Origin: Candidatus Zhuqueibacterota bacterium
GTDB taxonomy: Bacteria; Zhuqueibacterota; QNDG01; JABMRT01
DNA: 46,635 bases
Reading direction: 5' to 3'
NCBI GenBank assembly: GCA_013202295.1
Contig: JABMRT010000050.1
Coordinates: forward strand, 1-46,635
Both the position numbers and the translations under genes were made by a program. The notes under the pieces are model-generated. The model saw only the letters and a list, made by a program, of their open reading frames with translations, made no database searches and had not been told where the DNA came from. Of this stretch, positions 7,356-39,195 are shown one piece after another. The first letter of the stretch is position 1; the number at the start of each line of letters is the position of its first letter.

Positions 7356-8447
7356 ATGAAAATGGGAATTATTTGGGCATGGCTTTTTATCCTGACCCTT
7401 TCTGTGGCGTGCTCCTTCTTGACCACGGAAAAGAAGTTTACCGTCCAAAGGGGTACAAATATTTCACACTGGCTCTCACAGAGTGATCGCCGCGGTGAGG
7501 AGCGTGTGGCCTGGTTCACAGAGAAGGATGTGGCATATCTGGCCAGTCTTGGATTTGACCATCTGCGCATCCCGGTAGACGAAGAACAGCTCTGGGATGA
7601 AGCGGGCAACAAGGAACTGGAAGCGTTCGCGCTGCTGCAATCCAGTTTGGACTGGAGTGAGAAATACGGATTGCGAGCCATTGTGGATCTTCACATTTTG
7701 CGCTCACATTATTTCAACGCGATCGATATTCCTTTGTGGACCGATCCTGCGGCTCAAGATCATTTTGTCCAGTTGTGGCGTGAACTTTCAACCGAACTCA
7801 AGGATCGCCCCGCACATTTGGTGGCTTACGAACTGATGAATGAAGCTGTGGCCGAAGATCCCGATGACTGGAACCAACTTGTAGCAAGGGCATTCTCAGT
7901 GGTTCGCGAGCAGGAACCGGAACGTGTGATCGTGATCGGATCCAACCGCTGGCAGATTGTGGATACCTTTGATGTGCTGAAGGTGCCTGAAAATGATCCT
8001 AATATCCTTTTAAGTTTTCACTTTTATACACCCATGACGTTTACGCATCATCAGGCAAGCTGGTGGCGAAATGGCGGTGAATATACAGGACCGGTAAAGT
8101 ATCCGGGCCTGATTGTGGAAGAGAAAGATCTGGATGGATTTCCTGAGAATGTTCAGGAGACAACTCGCAATAATAACGGTGTCTTCAACGCCGATACACT
8201 TGAGGCAATGTTAGAAAAACCCTTAAAAAAGCGTGAAGAGCTGGGACTTCCTTTATATTGTGGCGAGTGGGGATGCCTTCCAACTGTGCCTGAAAAAGAT
8301 CGGATGCAGTGGTACACTGACATGAGAACCATGCTCGAGAAAAATGATATTGGTTGGGCAACCTGGGATTATAAAGGTGATTTCGGGATTCGTAACAGAG
8401 AAACGGGTGAGCCTGTTGAACCATTGATTGAGGTGTTGTTGAAGTAG
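7356..8447 (+). CDS. GH5-family glycoside hydrolase, probable lipoprotein
   Basis: A 363-residue GH5 (cellulase superfamily) enzyme. The N-terminus is hydrophobic and ends at C19 (LSVACS). That is a weak lipobox, since position -3 is Ser rather than Leu, but it makes membrane anchoring likely. The barrel shows RGTNISHWL early, FDHLRIPVDE, VDLHI, acid/base E163 in AYELMNEAV, SFHFYTP, and nucleophile E304 in YCGEWG. No binding module or sorting domain is attached, unlike the GH5 at 13218, which suggests a periplasmic or inner-face role on oligosaccharides. AAGGAG precedes the ATG. It is convergent with the AT-rich SIR2 module. The GH5 subfamily and so the exact bond cut cannot be fixed by eye. 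Confidence 0.87.
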   Translation: MKMGIIWAWLFILTLSVACSFLTTEKKFTVQRGTNISHWLSQSDRRGEERVAWFTEKDVAYLASLGFDHLRIPVDEEQLWDEAGNKELEAFALLQSSLDWSEKYGLRAIVDLHILRSHYFNAIDIPLWTDPAAQDHFVQLWRELSTELKDRPAHLVAYELMNEAVAEDPDDWNQLVARAFSVVREQEPERVIVIGSNRWQIVDTFDVLKVPENDPNILLSFHFYTPMTFTHHQASWWRNGGEYTGPVKYPGLIVEEKDLDGFPENVQETTRNNNGVFNADTLEAMLEKPLKKREELGLPLYCGEWGCLPTVPEKDRMQWYTDMRTMLEKNDIGWATWDYKGDFGIRNRETGEPVEPLIEVLLK

Positions 8448-8465
8448 GTATTTTGATATTCTATA

Positions 8466-8494
8466 TTGTAGTCCATCTACATGATGGACTACAA
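8466..8494. terminator. Perfect inverted repeat between convergent genes
   Basis: TTGTAGTCCATC (8466-8477) and GATGGACTACAA (8483-8494) form a perfect 12-base stem with a 5-base loop. It lies between the GH5 stop and the SIR2-module stop. There is no long T run, only CTTTATTTC on the plus side, so terminator function is likely but not textbook. Confidence 0.6.
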
Positions 8495-8496
8495 CT

Positions 8497-11406
8497 TTAT
8501 TTCAACAAATCACCAAAATCGAAATACCCAAGAGCACCGAATTGATTTACTACTTCTTCGGCTTTCTCTCTAACTTTAAAATTATCGTTTATAAGTGCAT
8601 CTGATAAAATCTTCCTTGCATCATCTTTCCAAAAAACTTGATATCTTTCTTTGTGGTTAATAATCATTAAATTTAAACATTCAAGCGTTTGAAATGGAAA
8701 ATCACTGAATACTTTAGATAAATATTCAACAACGTCTTTATCATGCTCTACTTTGACACCAGCCTGAAGGACATTAAGTAATTTTTCGATTACCCAATTT
8801 ATTTCAAGGATATCCGAAGCCACCCAAATTCCAAACCATTTGAGCGAGTCTTTATCTTCTTCAGACAATTTATTAAAATCGTATTTCTTCTCTAACCAAT
8901 CCCACAGTTCAATAAATTTTACTTTCATATCATCAGGAATTGTACCTTCAGAATTTAAAAGCAATAAACCACTATAATCGAAAATATGTAATTTTATCTT
9001 GGCCGGTGAAAGATTGAAAAATTTATCAAGTAAGCTACCCTCTTTAAATTCAATTAATCCCCGCAATGAGTAAACAACTAGATGTTCGACAAGTGATTCG
9101 CTTGGTTTATACATTTGGTTATCATCATCCATCTCCTGAATTTTATGAATAGCATAATCGTAGACATGTTTAAGAATTGGGAATACATTATCAAAAGCTC
9201 TAGTAAATGTTATATATGAATACCAAGCAGAAAAAAAATAATTTTCATATTCATGATCTTGTGGGAATATTACATTTACATGTTTTTCTGCCCATTTTTG
9301 ATCCAATAGAACAAGCCATGGGAACCATTTACCATAAACGGAGCGTATCGTTAATCTTGGCTCTTTTTTTCTATCTAATTTCAAGTTGAGTAAATCTCTC
9401 AATTCAGGTATATGAACGAAACCTTCCTCTACTAGCTTTTTAAAGTTAACTTGATTTTCTTGTTTGCGTCTTACCCATAAACCATAGCGTATTGTAGCAT
9501 GCATTGCTTGTCCGCTTACAGTGTTTATTGACATTGATGAATAATCGTTACTTGGACGGTCTTCCTCAATCGTTGGATCTGGATCATCAGTCAACAACCT
9601 AATTATTTCCCATATTTTTGAACGAAATTTTTCTGGTATTTCAGTAGGCTCACTTGAAAAACCGTGTTCAAGTAGATCAGCCGTCCGTCTTCTTGCGAAT
9701 ACAAATCCGGGATCATTATACTCACTTTTATATTCAGATACTTCCCTGGGTTGCGCCATGACCCATTGTAAAAATTCTATAACCTGTTCCCATTCTATTT
9801 GTTTCTTATCTTTGATAGCTTCTCTAAAACCACTGATAATATCACGAATGTATACAGGATCAATTTTTGTATCATGGAACAAGGATAATTTTTCAGTGAA
9901 CTTTTGAGGGTTGTCTTTTACCATTAATTCAATTTGTCGAGCCAAACCCTCTCGAGAGGGTGCCATTCTTTCATTACTTGGCTGCCATAATATGAGATAT
10001 TGTGTTAGCTCTTCAATAGATTTGTTAGAAATGTCCTCATATTCTTTTGGGCTTGTTGGCCCTACCCATGACACACCATGAGTATATGACAGATCTGGAT
10101 TTTCCGATGAACCAAATTCTTCTTTGTATTTAATGTATGTACTGTTCCAATCATCAGATAGATACTTCTGTATCGGTATTAGCTTTTCATATTTCCATCT
10201 TCTGATTCTATCTTCTTTTTCAGATTTAGAAAATTTCTTTTTATGTTCTGTTTGAAGCCATTCAATTGTCTTGATTGCTCCAAATCCAGAATTCACAAGT
10301 TTTAAGTACTCATCTTTGGTCTTTTCACTGAATTGTTCAAAGCGGTCTTCAAGCAAATGATATAATTCATATTTAAAATGATTATCTTCACATATCTCTT
10401 TATCTATTATTAGATTCTCAGTATTCTGTTTATCGAGATTGGACCATTTGCGTCGAAGGTGCATCGCTATACGTTTGAATATCACATATTGTCGATCTTG
10501 CGCCTCAAGATATCTGAGTATTTTTAAACCATATTTAGGCATTAGTCTTATTGCCGCATCACGAACAGACTCGACTAGAATTTCCTGAAGGTCCATGGGT
10601 GTATTTTCTTCATGATCTTCTATTGCTGGTCGCCATATATATGAATAATCAGCTGGCCCTTCTTTTTCTGATTTATTGACCATGGAATATTTTATGGCTT
10701 TGTACAATAGGTCAATAAGAAGGAAAAATGTATCCATTTCTCCAGCTTCGACCAAATCAGGCATGTGTTTTTTTAATATATTGCTATAATCATGTGTATC
10801 CATTTTTATTTGAAGTTGCGGGGATGGGGATAGAAAGCTATCTTGAACTTCCATTTCGAATCTTGGATCAGGTTTAATATCTAATACAATTTTGGCAAGT
10901 TTTAAGGCTGCCTGTATCTTATTCCCTTTTGCCAATTTACTCAAAATATGACCGATTCTGTGTGAATAAAGTATATGTATCTTTTCCTGGTTTTTTAAAT
11001 AATCAAGTTCCTTGACCATTATCTTTGCAGCAAGTTCAGGATTTAGTTTTTCTGCTATATCGAGTATGTCATAATGAACAGTAAAATTATCAGTTTCTTG
11101 TATGTCGAGAATTGTATCACATACTAAAATTTCGTCTTTTAATACCATCCTTGTTAAATAATCCATTTCAGGCCAATTGGGATATTGAATAAAGTCACCT
11201 TTTTTTTCGGGATTGGGAGGTTTTGAGAAAACATTTTTTTCTTTTAGCGCTATCAGCCATTCTTTTGAGTCAAGATTTTTATATGCATATTCAGCAAGTA
11301 TCGAGTTTCTTGTAAGATTCAGAAATTCAGTTAACGATTTGATATTGGGCTGTTTTGAAATTAAATCATCTAATTTCGATATTTGATTAAAAAACTTTTC
11401 AGGCAT
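8497..11406 (-). CDS. Large helical-repeat protein of unknown family, partner of SIR2 protein
   Basis: I do not recognise a named family with confidence. It has 969 residues, no signal peptide and no membrane segment, and appears almost entirely alpha-helical with many charged and aromatic residues. A landmark segment lies near 446-490 (WVGPTSPKEYEDIS, then YLILWQPS and PSREGLARQIELM). The last 45 residues look like a HEAT-type repeat ending GYFDFGDLLK. No Walker A, nuclease or helicase motif was found. It starts 3 bases after the SIR2 stop with GAGAGG inside the SIR2 coding end, so the two are translated as a pair. Together they total 1288 residues, in the size range of single-chain DSR-type sirtuins. 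By analogy it may be the phage sensor or scaffold for the SIR2 NADase; that is inference. Base composition is much lower in GC than the flanking genes. Confidence 0.8.
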   Translation of the reverse strand: MPEKFFNQISKLDDLISKQPNIKSLTEFLNLTRNSILAEYAYKNLDSKEWLIALKEKNVFSKPPNPEKKGDFIQYPNWPEMDYLTRMVLKDEILVCDTILDIQETDNFTVHYDILDIAEKLNPELAAKIMVKELDYLKNQEKIHILYSHRIGHILSKLAKGNKIQAALKLAKIVLDIKPDPRFEMEVQDSFLSPSPQLQIKMDTHDYSNILKKHMPDLVEAGEMDTFFLLIDLLYKAIKYSMVNKSEKEGPADYSYIWRPAIEDHEENTPMDLQEILVESVRDAAIRLMPKYGLKILRYLEAQDRQYVIFKRIAMHLRRKWSNLDKQNTENLIIDKEICEDNHFKYELYHLLEDRFEQFSEKTKDEYLKLVNSGFGAIKTIEWLQTEHKKKFSKSEKEDRIRRWKYEKLIPIQKYLSDDWNSTYIKYKEEFGSSENPDLSYTHGVSWVGPTSPKEYEDISNKSIEELTQYLILWQPSNERMAPSREGLARQIELMVKDNPQKFTEKLSLFHDTKIDPVYIRDIISGFREAIKDKKQIEWEQVIEFLQWVMAQPREVSEYKSEYNDPGFVFARRRTADLLEHGFSSEPTEIPEKFRSKIWEIIRLLTDDPDPTIEEDRPSNDYSSMSINTVSGQAMHATIRYGLWVRRKQENQVNFKKLVEEGFVHIPELRDLLNLKLDRKKEPRLTIRSVYGKWFPWLVLLDQKWAEKHVNVIFPQDHEYENYFFSAWYSYITFTRAFDNVFPILKHVYDYAIHKIQEMDDDNQMYKPSESLVEHLVVYSLRGLIEFKEGSLLDKFFNLSPAKIKLHIFDYSGLLLLNSEGTIPDDMKVKFIELWDWLEKKYDFNKLSEEDKDSLKWFGIWVASDILEINWVIEKLLNVLQAGVKVEHDKDVVEYLSKVFSDFPFQTLECLNLMIINHKERYQVFWKDDARKILSDALINDNFKVREKAEEVVNQFGALGYFDFGDLLK

Positions 11407-11409
11407 TTT

Positions 11410-12369
11410 TCAAATATCCTCTCGGGGGCTTATCCTTATTGGTGCCCTTTTAAATGCTTCAGCAAAATCACAAATTTTCTCTAGTATATATTCTATTTCC
11501 TCATGTAAGTTTTCATCCCTTGGTATATATTTTATAACATCAATACTTAATTCATTAAAATATTTTATGCGATTTTTTTCGGTTTCATTGATCGTTGTAA
11601 TTTCGTCTTCACAATTGTTAATACTGGTTCGGCTTTCAGTTGCTAAAAGCATGCTTTTTTGTGGTTTATTCCACCTTGGGTCTTCTTCGGTTATTTGAAG
11701 TTGTATATCATTAACATTATGTAAAACCCTTTTAATCTCATCTTCCTCTAGCTGACAACCAATAAATAGTATATTGTACATTTGTAAAACAGATTTTAAA
11801 AAACTACTTACTACTCCCGGATCTGAATATGCCTTATAGAATTCAGAATTAGATAAAACGAGATTATTCTTTAAAGATGGATTTTCTTCTCTAGCTAGAC
11901 CATGTATATAATAAATTGATTTATCAGATGTGTTAATTGAGCTTAAATCTAAGTGAGGATATTTATAGATGTTCTTTCCCCTATCCTCCAGGAGATCAGC
12001 AGCCTTCATTAGGAGATGATCAAAATTTGTAGTTATATACCCCTTAAATGGTAATCTTAATAATAAGTGATAAGCACGTCGGTCTCTGACAGTGCGATGT
12101 CCAAATAAATCACTTAAAACTCGTGAATATTCATCTGGGTTTTTTAATTTACACTTATCAGCGATATGCATTAGCGATTTTGCAGTATAATTTTTTGATT
12201 GATCAAGTTCTTCCAAACAACATCTATTACATAACTGATTAATTGTGCTCTTCCAGTTTGGGTATCCTGCAATTACCGACAATCCTGAACCAATCCATAC
12301 AATGCAATTATTTTTTTCTATTAATTTCCAAAGTTTCTTAGAAATTTCAATTAGTTCAGTTTGGTCCAT
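11410..12369 (-). CDS. SIR2-like domain protein, probable defence NADase
   Basis: A 319-residue SIR2-like (SIR2_2 type) protein. The NAD-binding motif reads IGSGLSVIAGYPNW (26-39). TTNFDHLL follows with N115, then YYIHG with H156, and FIGCQLEEDEI (202-212). N115 and H156 correspond to the Asn/His pair needed for NAD cleavage in anti-phage sirtuins such as DSR2 and ThsA. The zinc-ribbon cysteines of deacetylase sirtuins are absent. It is the first gene of a two-gene operon with the 969-residue protein. A near-consensus promoter lies about 55 bases upstream; the ribosome site before the ATG is weak. The likely action is NAD depletion on phage infection. The catalytic call is established for the family, while the defence role here is inferred from partner and context. 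Confidence 0.85.
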   Translation of the reverse strand: MDQTELIEISKKLWKLIEKNNCIVWIGSGLSVIAGYPNWKSTINQLCNRCCLEELDQSKNYTAKSLMHIADKCKLKNPDEYSRVLSDLFGHRTVRDRRAYHLLLRLPFKGYITTNFDHLLMKAADLLEDRGKNIYKYPHLDLSSINTSDKSIYYIHGLAREENPSLKNNLVLSNSEFYKAYSDPGVVSSFLKSVLQMYNILFIGCQLEEDEIKRVLHNVNDIQLQITEEDPRWNKPQKSMLLATESRTSINNCEDEITTINETEKNRIKYFNELSIDVIKYIPRDENLHEEIEYILEKICDFAEAFKRAPIRISPREDI

Positions 12370-12423
12370 TGTATCCAGAGGTTTATTAATGAGAGAATTT
12401 ACTTCGGTGGTGTGAATGAGAGT

Positions 12424-12452
12424 AATATAATTTCATTTGTTTTAAATGTCAA
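12424..12452 (-). promoter_or_regulatory. Near-consensus sigma-70 promoter of the SIR2 operon
   Basis: On the minus strand a perfect TTGACA (12452-12447), exactly 17 bases, then TATATT (12429-12424). It sits between the terminator of the DUF1080 gene and the SIR2 start, giving a leader of about 48 bases. The module therefore does not depend on the upstream glycan operon. Confidence 0.75.
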
Positions 12453-12463
12453 GATCGATTCAT

Positions 12464-12485
12464 AGGGTGGGCCATTACCCACCCT
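12464..12485 (-). terminator. Hairpin after the fucosidase/GH5/DUF1080 operon
   Basis: AGGGTGGG (12464-12471) and CCCACCCT (12478-12485) form a perfect 8-base stem with a 6-base loop, 11 bases past the DUF1080 stop. No T run follows on the minus strand, so it may be an imperfect terminator or an mRNA 3' end stabiliser. Confidence 0.6.
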
Positions 12486-12496
12486 GTTCGAAACAT

Positions 12497-13192
12497 TTAT
12501 TCCAATTCCCAAATTTTAATATTTCTGAAGAAAATCGGCGCACCGGCGTGCTTGCCCTGAAATCCGACGTGACCCTTGGTGGGCAGCTTTGCAAACGGTG
12601 TTGAGAGCCAAGATGGAATGTCCGTTCCATCCGGATTCTTTGTGCCGGATGTCCAGAGGCTCATATCCATGTGTGTGACAGATTTTCCATTGAGCATGAT
12701 CCAGATGTCTTTGTCCTTACAGGTGATGGTGTAGCGGTTCCACTCACCTGGCTGTTTAACCACGCTTTTGGATGCGCCCAAATGTCCAAAAATTGCGGCA
12801 CATTGCCATGTCTTATCTGAGTTGGCCCACTGCTCTGCATAGTCATCCGCGATTTGCACTTCCACGGAATTCGGAATCCAGTTCTCAGTATCACTGCAAT
12901 AAACAATTGCACCGCTGTTTGTGCCTTCAGCTGTCTTGAATTCGAGATCCAGAATGAAATTATCATAAACCTTCCCACTCCAAATGTTCTGATCCTCGCT
13001 GGCCGTCAGAATACCATCCTCAAAGGTCCATACGTTGTCTGGCTTGATGGTATTTAATAGATCGGGTGCGAACAGATCCTGCCAACCACTGACATCGGGA
13101 TGGGTTTTCGGCGGGATGTCCATCTGGGCAGAACATGAGATGAGAAAAAATCCAATAAGAATTAAAACAAACAAAGATTTTACATGATCCAT
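12497..13192 (-). CDS. DUF1080 (3-keto-disaccharide hydrolase-like) lipoprotein
   Basis: A 231-residue lipoprotein: signal peptide with lipobox FLISC (C20), then one DUF1080 domain. Recognisable parts are GWQDLF, WTFEDGILTA, FILDLEFKT, NSGAIVYC, GEWNRYTITC, and GHVGFQGKH with FFRNIKIWELE at the end. The fold is a concanavalin-like sandwich; characterised members hydrolyse 3-keto-glycosides or bind glycans. ATG 13192 is preferred over ATG 13198 because AAAGGA is well spaced only for the former. It is the last gene of the minus-strand operon, 25 bases after the GH5-CBM6 gene. If it acts on 3-keto sugars, the Gfo/Idh gene at 4160 could be a functional partner, but no direct evidence links them. 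Confidence 0.87.
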   Translation of the reverse strand: MDHVKSLFVLILIGFFLISCSAQMDIPPKTHPDVSGWQDLFAPDLLNTIKPDNVWTFEDGILTASEDQNIWSGKVYDNFILDLEFKTAEGTNSGAIVYCSDTENWIPNSVEVQIADDYAEQWANSDKTWQCAAIFGHLGASKSVVKQPGEWNRYTITCKDKDIWIMLNGKSVTHMDMSLWTSGTKNPDGTDIPSWLSTPFAKLPTKGHVGFQGKHAGAPIFFRNIKIWELE

Positions 13193-37650: not shown

Positions 37651-38622
37651 GTGGAAAAAACCAAGATTGGTGTGATCGGCGTGGGTCATCTGGGCCGGTA
37701 TCATGCCTTGAATTATGCCCAAATCGTGGACGCGGATCTAATCGGTGTTTTTGATGCCGATCCTGAACGCGCCAAACTGGTCGCGGATGAAGGCCATTGT
37801 GAGGTTTTCGAATCCATTGAAGGCCTATTGGATGCAGTGTACGCGGTCAGTGTGGCTGTGCCCACGGATCATCATTATGATATAGTCAAATCAGTATTTC
37901 AAAAGGGGATTCATTGTCTCGTTGAGAAGCCGATTACAGCAACTGTTGAAGAAGCAGATCAACTTGTACAATTAGCCAATGAAAAAGGATTGGTTTTCCA
38001 TGTGGGTCAGATTGAGCGATTCAATCCAGCAATCCGGGCGATTGGTAGCATGGATCTTCATCCACAATTTATCGAAGCGCATCGGTTGGCGCCCTTTAAT
38101 CCCCGTGGCACGGAAGTCGCAGTGATCCTCGATCTCATGATTCATGACATTGATGTGGTGCTCAGCCTGGTTAAATCCCCGGTTGCACATCTGGATGCGA
38201 GCGGTGTAACCGTGGTTTCAGAATCCACTGATATTGCAAACGCACGTATACGGTTTGAAAACGGGTGCGTGGCCAATCTTACGGCAAGCCGTATTTCGCA
38301 GAAGAAGATGCGCAAGATGCGCCTCTTCCAGAAGGATACCTACATCTCCATAGATTTTGATGCCAAGATGTCCGAGATTTACCAGCTCGAATCCGAAATC
38401 TCCGAGAAAGCGGATATGGTCGTAGGAGAAATTGGTGCGGAAGGGCGTAAGCGGCGCATCATTTATTCCAAGCCGCAGAAGGATGAAGATAACGCGCTTA
38501 AAACTGAACTTGAAACATTTATCCACGCGGTTCAGGGGAAACCCGAATCAGGTGTAAGTGGCGCTGAGGGCCGAGATGCTCTGGCCGTGGCGGAACAGAT
38601 ATTAAAACTTGTGGAGGACTGA
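37651..38622 (+). CDS. Gfo/Idh/MocA oxidoreductase in lipid A operon, possible GnnA-type
   Basis: A 323-residue Rossmann-fold oxidoreductase with GVGHLG at 10-15 and EKP at 92-94, plus the C-terminal Gfo/Idh domain containing DLMIHDIDVVLSLV. It begins with GTG after GGAGGA and is the first gene of a run that goes on to lpxB and lpxK. In Acidithiobacillus and Leptospira, a Gfo/Idh protein (GnnA) oxidises the 3-OH of UDP-GlcNAc for lipid A with amide-linked acyl chains. Location and size make GnnA plausible here, but its aminotransferase partner GnnB is not in the window. The link is therefore inference, while the family call is firm. Confidence 0.82.
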   Translation: MEKTKIGVIGVGHLGRYHALNYAQIVDADLIGVFDADPERAKLVADEGHCEVFESIEGLLDAVYAVSVAVPTDHHYDIVKSVFQKGIHCLVEKPITATVEEADQLVQLANEKGLVFHVGQIERFNPAIRAIGSMDLHPQFIEAHRLAPFNPRGTEVAVILDLMIHDIDVVLSLVKSPVAHLDASGVTVVSESTDIANARIRFENGCVANLTASRISQKKMRKMRLFQKDTYISIDFDAKMSEIYQLESEISEKADMVVGEIGAEGRKRRIIYSKPQKDEDNALKTELETFIHAVQGKPESGVSGAEGRDALAVAEQILKLVED

Positions 38623-39195
38623 TTGACACCTGGGCAATTTTTCTTTAAACATCGCAGCTATACTCCCATCCCGCTGCTGCTGGCAGTGCTGATTCTGGCT
38701 GATACGACATGGACCAGTTTTCTGACGGGACTGACCATCATGTTTCTTGGCGAAAGTATGCGGTTTTGGGGAGTGCTGTACGCCGGATCGGCCACGCGCA
38801 CAACCGGTGAGGTGGGCGCGGGCAGGCTGGTCACGGATGGTCCTTTCGCGCATGTGCGCAATCCGCTTTACGTGGGGAATTTTTTATTAAGTCTCGGTCT
38901 GACCGTGATGAGCCGGGCATGGATGCCATGGATGCTGCTGGTCTTTCTCTTTCTTTTCGGTATACAATATGCGTTCATCGTGAAAGAAGAAGAAGGATTT
39001 CTGGCCAAACAGTTTGGTGATCAGTATGCTGAATATTGCCAGCATGTCCCGCGCTGGATTCTAAAAATTCGAGGTTTCACCAATTCCGAATTGTCCAGCC
39101 CAGTCTTTGCCAAGGCCCTGCGTTCTGAGCGCAATACACTTCAGTCCGCTCTTGCTGTCACACTACTCATGTTAATAAGATGGCATCTGCTCTAA
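38623..39195 (+). CDS. Isoprenylcysteine/phospholipid-type membrane methyltransferase
   Basis: A 190-residue multi-pass membrane protein of the ICMT/PEMT-like methyltransferase family. It has four or so hydrophobic segments. The SAM-related motif VTDGPFAHVRNPLYVGNF (70-87) is followed by the late signature VKEEEGFLAKQFGDQYAEYC. TTG start with GGAGG in front; it starts right after the previous stop (TGA at 38620-38622). It overlaps lpxB by 16 bases. Position between the Gfo/Idh gene and lpxB suggests a job on an envelope lipid or isoprenoid, but the substrate is unknown. Confidence 0.83.
   Translation: MTPGQFFFKHRSYTPIPLLLAVLILADTTWTSFLTGLTIMFLGESMRFWGVLYAGSATRTTGEVGAGRLVTDGPFAHVRNPLYVGNFLLSLGLTVMSRAWMPWMLLVFLFLFGIQYAFIVKEEEGFLAKQFGDQYAEYCQHVPRWILKIRGFTNSELSSPVFAKALRSERNTLQSALAVTLLMLIRWHLL

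Follow-up and report, generated by a model that had tools for sequence, protein, structure and literature searches.

DSR1 has been described as a single-gene system (PMC10973363). The window analysed here, a contig of 46,635 nucleotides from a Candidatus Zhuqueibacterota bacterium (JABMRT010000050.1), carries a SIR2-like gene and, three bases further on, a gene for a 969-residue helical protein. This arrangement raises the question of whether the two genes form a split version of such a system, as a preliminary description had guessed from the sequence, or are the pieces of a broken gene. We consider it probable that they constitute a two-gene DSR1-like anti-phage system, in which a complex of two proteins would deplete NAD+ when infection triggers it.

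The two genes and their match to DSR1

The features of the pair are listed in Table 1. The coordinates and the three-base spacing given in the preliminary description are correct, and the SIR2 gene lies upstream.

Table 1 Features of the SIR2 and helical gene pair, in window positions
Feature	Positions	Strand	Basis
SIR2-type NADase protein (predicted), 319 aa	11410–12369	−	Pfam SIR2_2, PADLOC ThsA/Dsr1 and PDB ThsA matches
All-helical 969-aa protein, DSR1 C-terminal homologue	8497–11406	−	PADLOC Dsr1 PDLC04166
Promoter-like TTGACA-17-TATATT	12424–12452	−	11/12 consensus; 55 bases 5' of SIR2 start codon
Junction: GAGAGG (possible Shine-Dalgarno), SIR2 stop TGA, AAA, helical ATG, in frame	11407–11429	−	Sequence
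Terminator-like hairpin, 12-bp stem, immediately 3' of helical gene	8466–8494	reported +

A SIR2_2 domain (E 5e-17) is the only domain that Pfam detects in the SIR2 protein, and no SLOG domain was found in it. Its motifs are GSGLS, TTNFD (containing N115) and IHG (containing H156). In an alignment with ThsA, N115 pairs with N112 (motif TTNYD) and H156 with the histidine of HG, bearing out the earlier reading of both residues as intact, and both are invariant in the SIR2 proteins of two other split pairs, L009 and L011. ThsA gives the better PADLOC match (7e-19, vs 5e-12 for Dsr1) and the best PDB match, the closest solved relative being 6lhx (E 8e-10). In a phylogenetic tree, the SIR2 proteins of the window, L009 and L011 are nearest relatives of each other and form one clade (SH-aLRT 97), to which neither ThsA nor the fused DSR1 that this genome also encodes belongs. 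That genome encodes a further SIR2_2 protein, in a 460-residue open frame (G000:C185:10176-10595; L080, L075). SIR2 matches on the plasmids examined belonged to Thoeris or other systems, never to a SIR2 and helical pair.

The 969-residue protein, which the preliminary description could not place, has no significant match in Pfam, and neither Pfam nor PADLOC gives an ATPase match. The HMM search against PADLOC models suggested there places it: residues 7-964 correspond to positions 292-1216 of the Dsr1 model PDLC04166 (E 1.5e-63), covering the C-terminal 75% of the model end to end. The SIR2 protein corresponds to positions 11-217 of the same model, and a genome search with PDLC04166 returned one continuous match, model positions 11-1216, spanning one internal TGA. 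Because the two proteins match the N-terminal and then the C-terminal part of one model, the genes are, at the level of sequence, two halves of DSR1 in their original order, cut at the domain boundary. The guess of a split DSR system accordingly holds, for the DSR1 rather than the DSR2 type, and the summed length thought to suit a split version (1288 residues) compares with 1227 in the Dsr1 model.

The ThsA matches have to be set against this assignment. They would be expected if the SIR2 protein acted or signalled other than by NAD+ depletion, for example by answering a nucleotide signal as ThsA does, with the helical protein as a scaffold; its best matches are indeed ThsA models and not Dsr1. 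However, the SLOG domain was not found, none of the flanking genes tested encodes a TIR protein, and in PADLOC the partner matches Dsr1 and no Thoeris part. We regard this alternative as improbable, and retain the split DSR1-like system as the preferred reading.

For the joined SIR2-helical chain, modelled with AlphaFold2 without its last 90 residues, pLDDT was mostly 80-97 in the helical part. In the SIR2 part it was mostly 30-60, a consequence of the small number of relatives at hand; this part is unreliable, and the SIR2-helical interface unreadable. Foldseek matched the helical protein to HEAT/ARM solenoids, the fifth-ranked match being Avs4 bound to a phage portal; all had a TM of about 0.2, a value that speaks for a solenoid and not for family membership. 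The protein would thus be a HEAT-like solenoid, and a role as sensor or scaffold is presumed for it.

The promoter-like site is the top consensus match within 8300-12700, and shuffled sequence yields comparable site counts; alone, it argues only weakly for a real promoter. The hairpin is nearly symmetrical and could act on either strand. Together the two sites flank exactly the SIR2 and helical genes, which are laid out as one operon, the whole unit running from about 8466 to 12452. A low-GC island spans exactly the same two genes (GC 32.6%, GC3 23-26%, vs 46.5% and about 50% on either side). The immediate neighbours are genes for a GH5 cellulase and a 3-keto-disaccharide hydrolase, and the surroundings are carbohydrate-related (GH5 cellulases, 3-keto-disaccharide hydrolase, DeoC aldolase); no defence island was found among the flanking genes of the window. 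The 3-keto-disaccharide hydrolase, the sole flanking gene searched for, had only distant matches in relatives. With a GC island of exactly two genes, promoter- and terminator-like sites of its own and carbohydrate neighbours, the pair therefore looks like one acquired two-gene cassette rather than a defence island.

A two-gene form or a broken fused gene

The SIR2 stop and the helical start lie in one frame (TGA-AAA-ATG), so a broken fused gene has to be weighed. The TGA would then have arisen recently by nonsense mutation, or be a mistake of assembly, in a formerly fused gene, and the pair a decayed or mis-sequenced single-chain DSR1, as the shared frame and the mere 3 bases between stop and next ATG would suggest.

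A code in which TGA is read as sense was also considered, and was rejected. TGA terminates 10 of the 30 long ORFs in the window, and at 38620-38623 (within 37651-39195) an in-frame TGA, with no gap, separates an oxidoreductase gene from a phospholipid-methyltransferase-like gene. These genes are unrelated and each is Pfam-complete; in this window TGA is used as a stop codon in the usual way.

The same pair recurs in two other phyla, so the adjacency of the SIR2 and helical genes is not due to chance. In a Pseudomonadota MAG (L009) the genes overlap by four bases, ATGA, and are out of frame; in a Thermodesulfobacteriota MAG (L011) the SIR2 gene ends in TAA, followed by AGGGAGGTG and a TTG start, with a strong Shine-Dalgarno sequence. 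These and the window pair, from three phyla, are the only split SIR2 pairs found. The preliminary description would have been contradicted had the genes never stood together elsewhere, which L009 and L011 show not to be the case. Its expectation of a conserved pair in defence islands stands as regards recurrence of the pair in these two MAGs, and does not hold for the window pair, which lies outside a defence island.

Ribosome-binding sites are present at the two other split pairs, and the nucleotide junctions of the three pairs are all different (n=3). The protein ends, in turn, are conserved: the SIR2 proteins stop at about the same position, with K/N-R-(P)-A-P-x... (the C-terminal end in the window, KRAPIRISPREDI, lines up with the others), and the helical proteins begin at the same position with MxxxKFF. 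That the protein ends are conserved while the junctions differ at the nucleotide level in all three cases speaks for a real two-gene form and not a broken gene. Decay or mis-sequencing of a fused DSR1 thus sits poorly with ends that match those of an out-of-frame ATGA overlap in L009 and of a gene with a strong Shine-Dalgarno sequence in L011. It also leaves 3.9 kb without any other stop or frameshift to be accounted for, and a fused SIR2 version was not found among close helical relatives; we consider it very unlikely. The history is complicated by the helical proteins of the three split pairs, which fail to group as one clade (AU p 0.014), although the window branch is long; SIR2 may have been joined to the helical module on more than one occasion.

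One helical module with different N-terminal partners

Relatives of the helical protein were gathered by an alignment-based scan of genome contigs, which gave 31 loci, vs no match when the genomes were scanned with the window protein singly. Phage records and viral contigs yielded no relatives. Every complete relative has an N-terminal partner, either fused or encoded directly upstream on the same strand. SIR2 is a separate upstream gene in three cases. The usual partner is a domain that we name AH, after recurring H..RE... and AH motifs: it is a separate upstream gene for a helical protein of 220-250 residues in about 12 cases, and a related domain of 130-260 residues is fused in about 18. 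A membrane nSTAND3 protein is encoded upstream of the module at L007:195-4467, in a genome judged to be of the same phylum (KSB1), and on haloarchaeal plasmids a STAND/AAA ATPase is fused to it (L045:2339-6790, L046:2591-6766 and L047:2633-6823).

Between close relatives the partner differs far more than the module. For L013 and L014, identity is 83% over the helical module and 21% over the partner, and in Phycisphaerae the values are 83% and 33% (L020, fused, vs L017, split). In Nostoc they are 91% and 40% (L022, fused, vs L025, split); here a segment of about 0.75 kb has been replaced (L022:7181-7959 vs L025:7111-7850), corresponding to the partner, and both sides are collinear with 94-96% DNA identity. 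Judging from these alignments, fused and split forms interconvert easily among close relatives, which supports functional equivalence of the split form in the window and fused DSR1.

The window's genome also contains a fused DSR1 of another branch, of 1176 aa. A second SIR2 protein, of 405 aa, is encoded immediately after it, with tyrosine-recombinase-like genes downstream; this locus (L079, G000:C83:131-4914 and 7406-11675) is likely a mobile defence locus.

A constant module beside a changing partner could also mean that killing, or the structural core, resides in the helical module, and that SIR2, AH and STAND are variable parts that trigger or regulate it; SIR2 would in that case be a sensor or switch and not the main effector. 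Modules at 83-91% identity beside AH partners at down to 21-40% are what one would see if a core stayed constant while its recognition part varied. Effector heads are, however, commonly exchanged among defence proteins. SIR2 with intact catalytic residues is moreover an established effector in DSR2, Avs5 and ThsA (PMC10973363, PMC12931631). There is little probability, in our judgement, that the roles are reversed in this way, and we keep SIR2 as the effector of a split DSR1-like system.

The AH domain is predicted to be all-helical (pLDDT 78), and invariance or near-invariance is confined to H53, R56, E57, H180, D220 and L223. No reliable match to it came from Pfam, PADLOC or Foldseek, and no significant one from the PDB; two members match pP_pnuc_1, with a best E of 8e-5 that is too weak for naming the domain. 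Assignment to HEPN, considered on account of RNRLPH-like motifs, was rejected because members of the family do not share a conserved motif of this kind.

Neighbours of the AH forms include type I restriction-modification genes (L010, L012, L024 and L032), PrrC (L010), a DrmD/DpdE-like helicase with a DrmMI methylase (L037), and DrmMI also at L029 and L038. The AH and helical genes stand directly downstream of DrmD/DrmMI or type I restriction-modification genes at L037:546-10832, L010:1630-10928, L024 and L032, and may be add-on guards of these systems. Such neighbours lend support to a defence role for the helical-module family.

We lean, on balance, towards a broader reading of the family: the DSR1 C-terminal region would represent one form among several of a widespread helical defence module with interchangeable partners (SIR2 NADases, AH, STAND ATPases), fused or separate, and swapped in place by recombination. 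AH, on this reading, would be a defence effector or recognition domain not described before, and would often act as a guard in restriction and DISARM operons.

Proposed mechanism and comparison with known systems

In DSR2, binding of the phage tail tube protein by the C-terminal domain is what switches on the SIR2 NADase (PMC10973363). By analogy with DSR2, we propose a working model in which the SIR2 protein would be the effector, kept inactive in a complex with the helical protein. The latter would be both sensor and holder and would recognise a component of the phage, probably one of its structural proteins, in the manner of the DSR2 C-terminus. Recognition would release the NADase, and the loss of NAD+ would block production of phage. 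What the sequences themselves show is homology to both halves of DSR1, intact catalytic residues, an operon layout, a split pair with conserved gene ends in three phyla, and exchange of partners on the helical module. Complex formation, the trigger, NADase activity with NAD+ depletion, and protection against phage are all inferred.

Like DSR1, the window pair has SIR2 first, with the catalytic Asn and His; a helical C-terminal region of about 950 residues, homologous to Dsr1, follows, and the total lengths are similar. It differs in consisting of two ORFs with a stop, a start and a possible ribosome-binding site, and in a SIR2 protein that scores higher against ThsA models. Against the NCBIfam Dsr1 model NF041818, with an equivalog cut-off of 1400 bits, the SIR2 protein scores 29.1 bits and the helical protein has no match. 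Since it is neither a single chain nor above the equivalog cut-off, we file the pair as a split DSR1-like variant and not as DSR1 proper. The open literature searched revealed no split DSR1 form, and the papers found contain no description of phage sensing by the DSR1 C-terminal region.

DSR2 (PDB 8k98, 8wya and others) likewise places a SIR2 NADase effector under a large C-terminal part, but it is a single chain and the sequence match is limited to the SIR2 part: the helical protein has no sequence match to DSR2 chains, and DSR2 is absent from its best 50 Foldseek fold matches. Nezha, or SIR2-HerA, is also a two-gene operon of a SIR2 NADase and a large partner; that partner is the HerA ATPase, whereas in the window it is a helical solenoid in which no ATPase domain is recognisable. 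Thoeris ThsA shares the SIR2 domain, but the features that distinguish it, SLOG and a TIR partner, are those missing from the window SIR2 protein and the flanking genes tested. Among Avs STAND proteins, the likeness lies in the haloarchaeal fusions to the same helical module and in Avs4 as a fold match; the window pair, in contrast, has no ATPase, and the Avs4 match is weak.

Such systems may be overlooked or misnamed by annotation tools built around a single chain or around SIR2, and the helical-module family exposes an unannotated AH domain that recurs in restriction and DISARM operons. Compared with single-chain DSR1 and DSR2, the natural split would allow sensor and effector to be purified, mixed and swapped without engineering, and a family of partners on one helical module makes its role as a general phage sensor testable.
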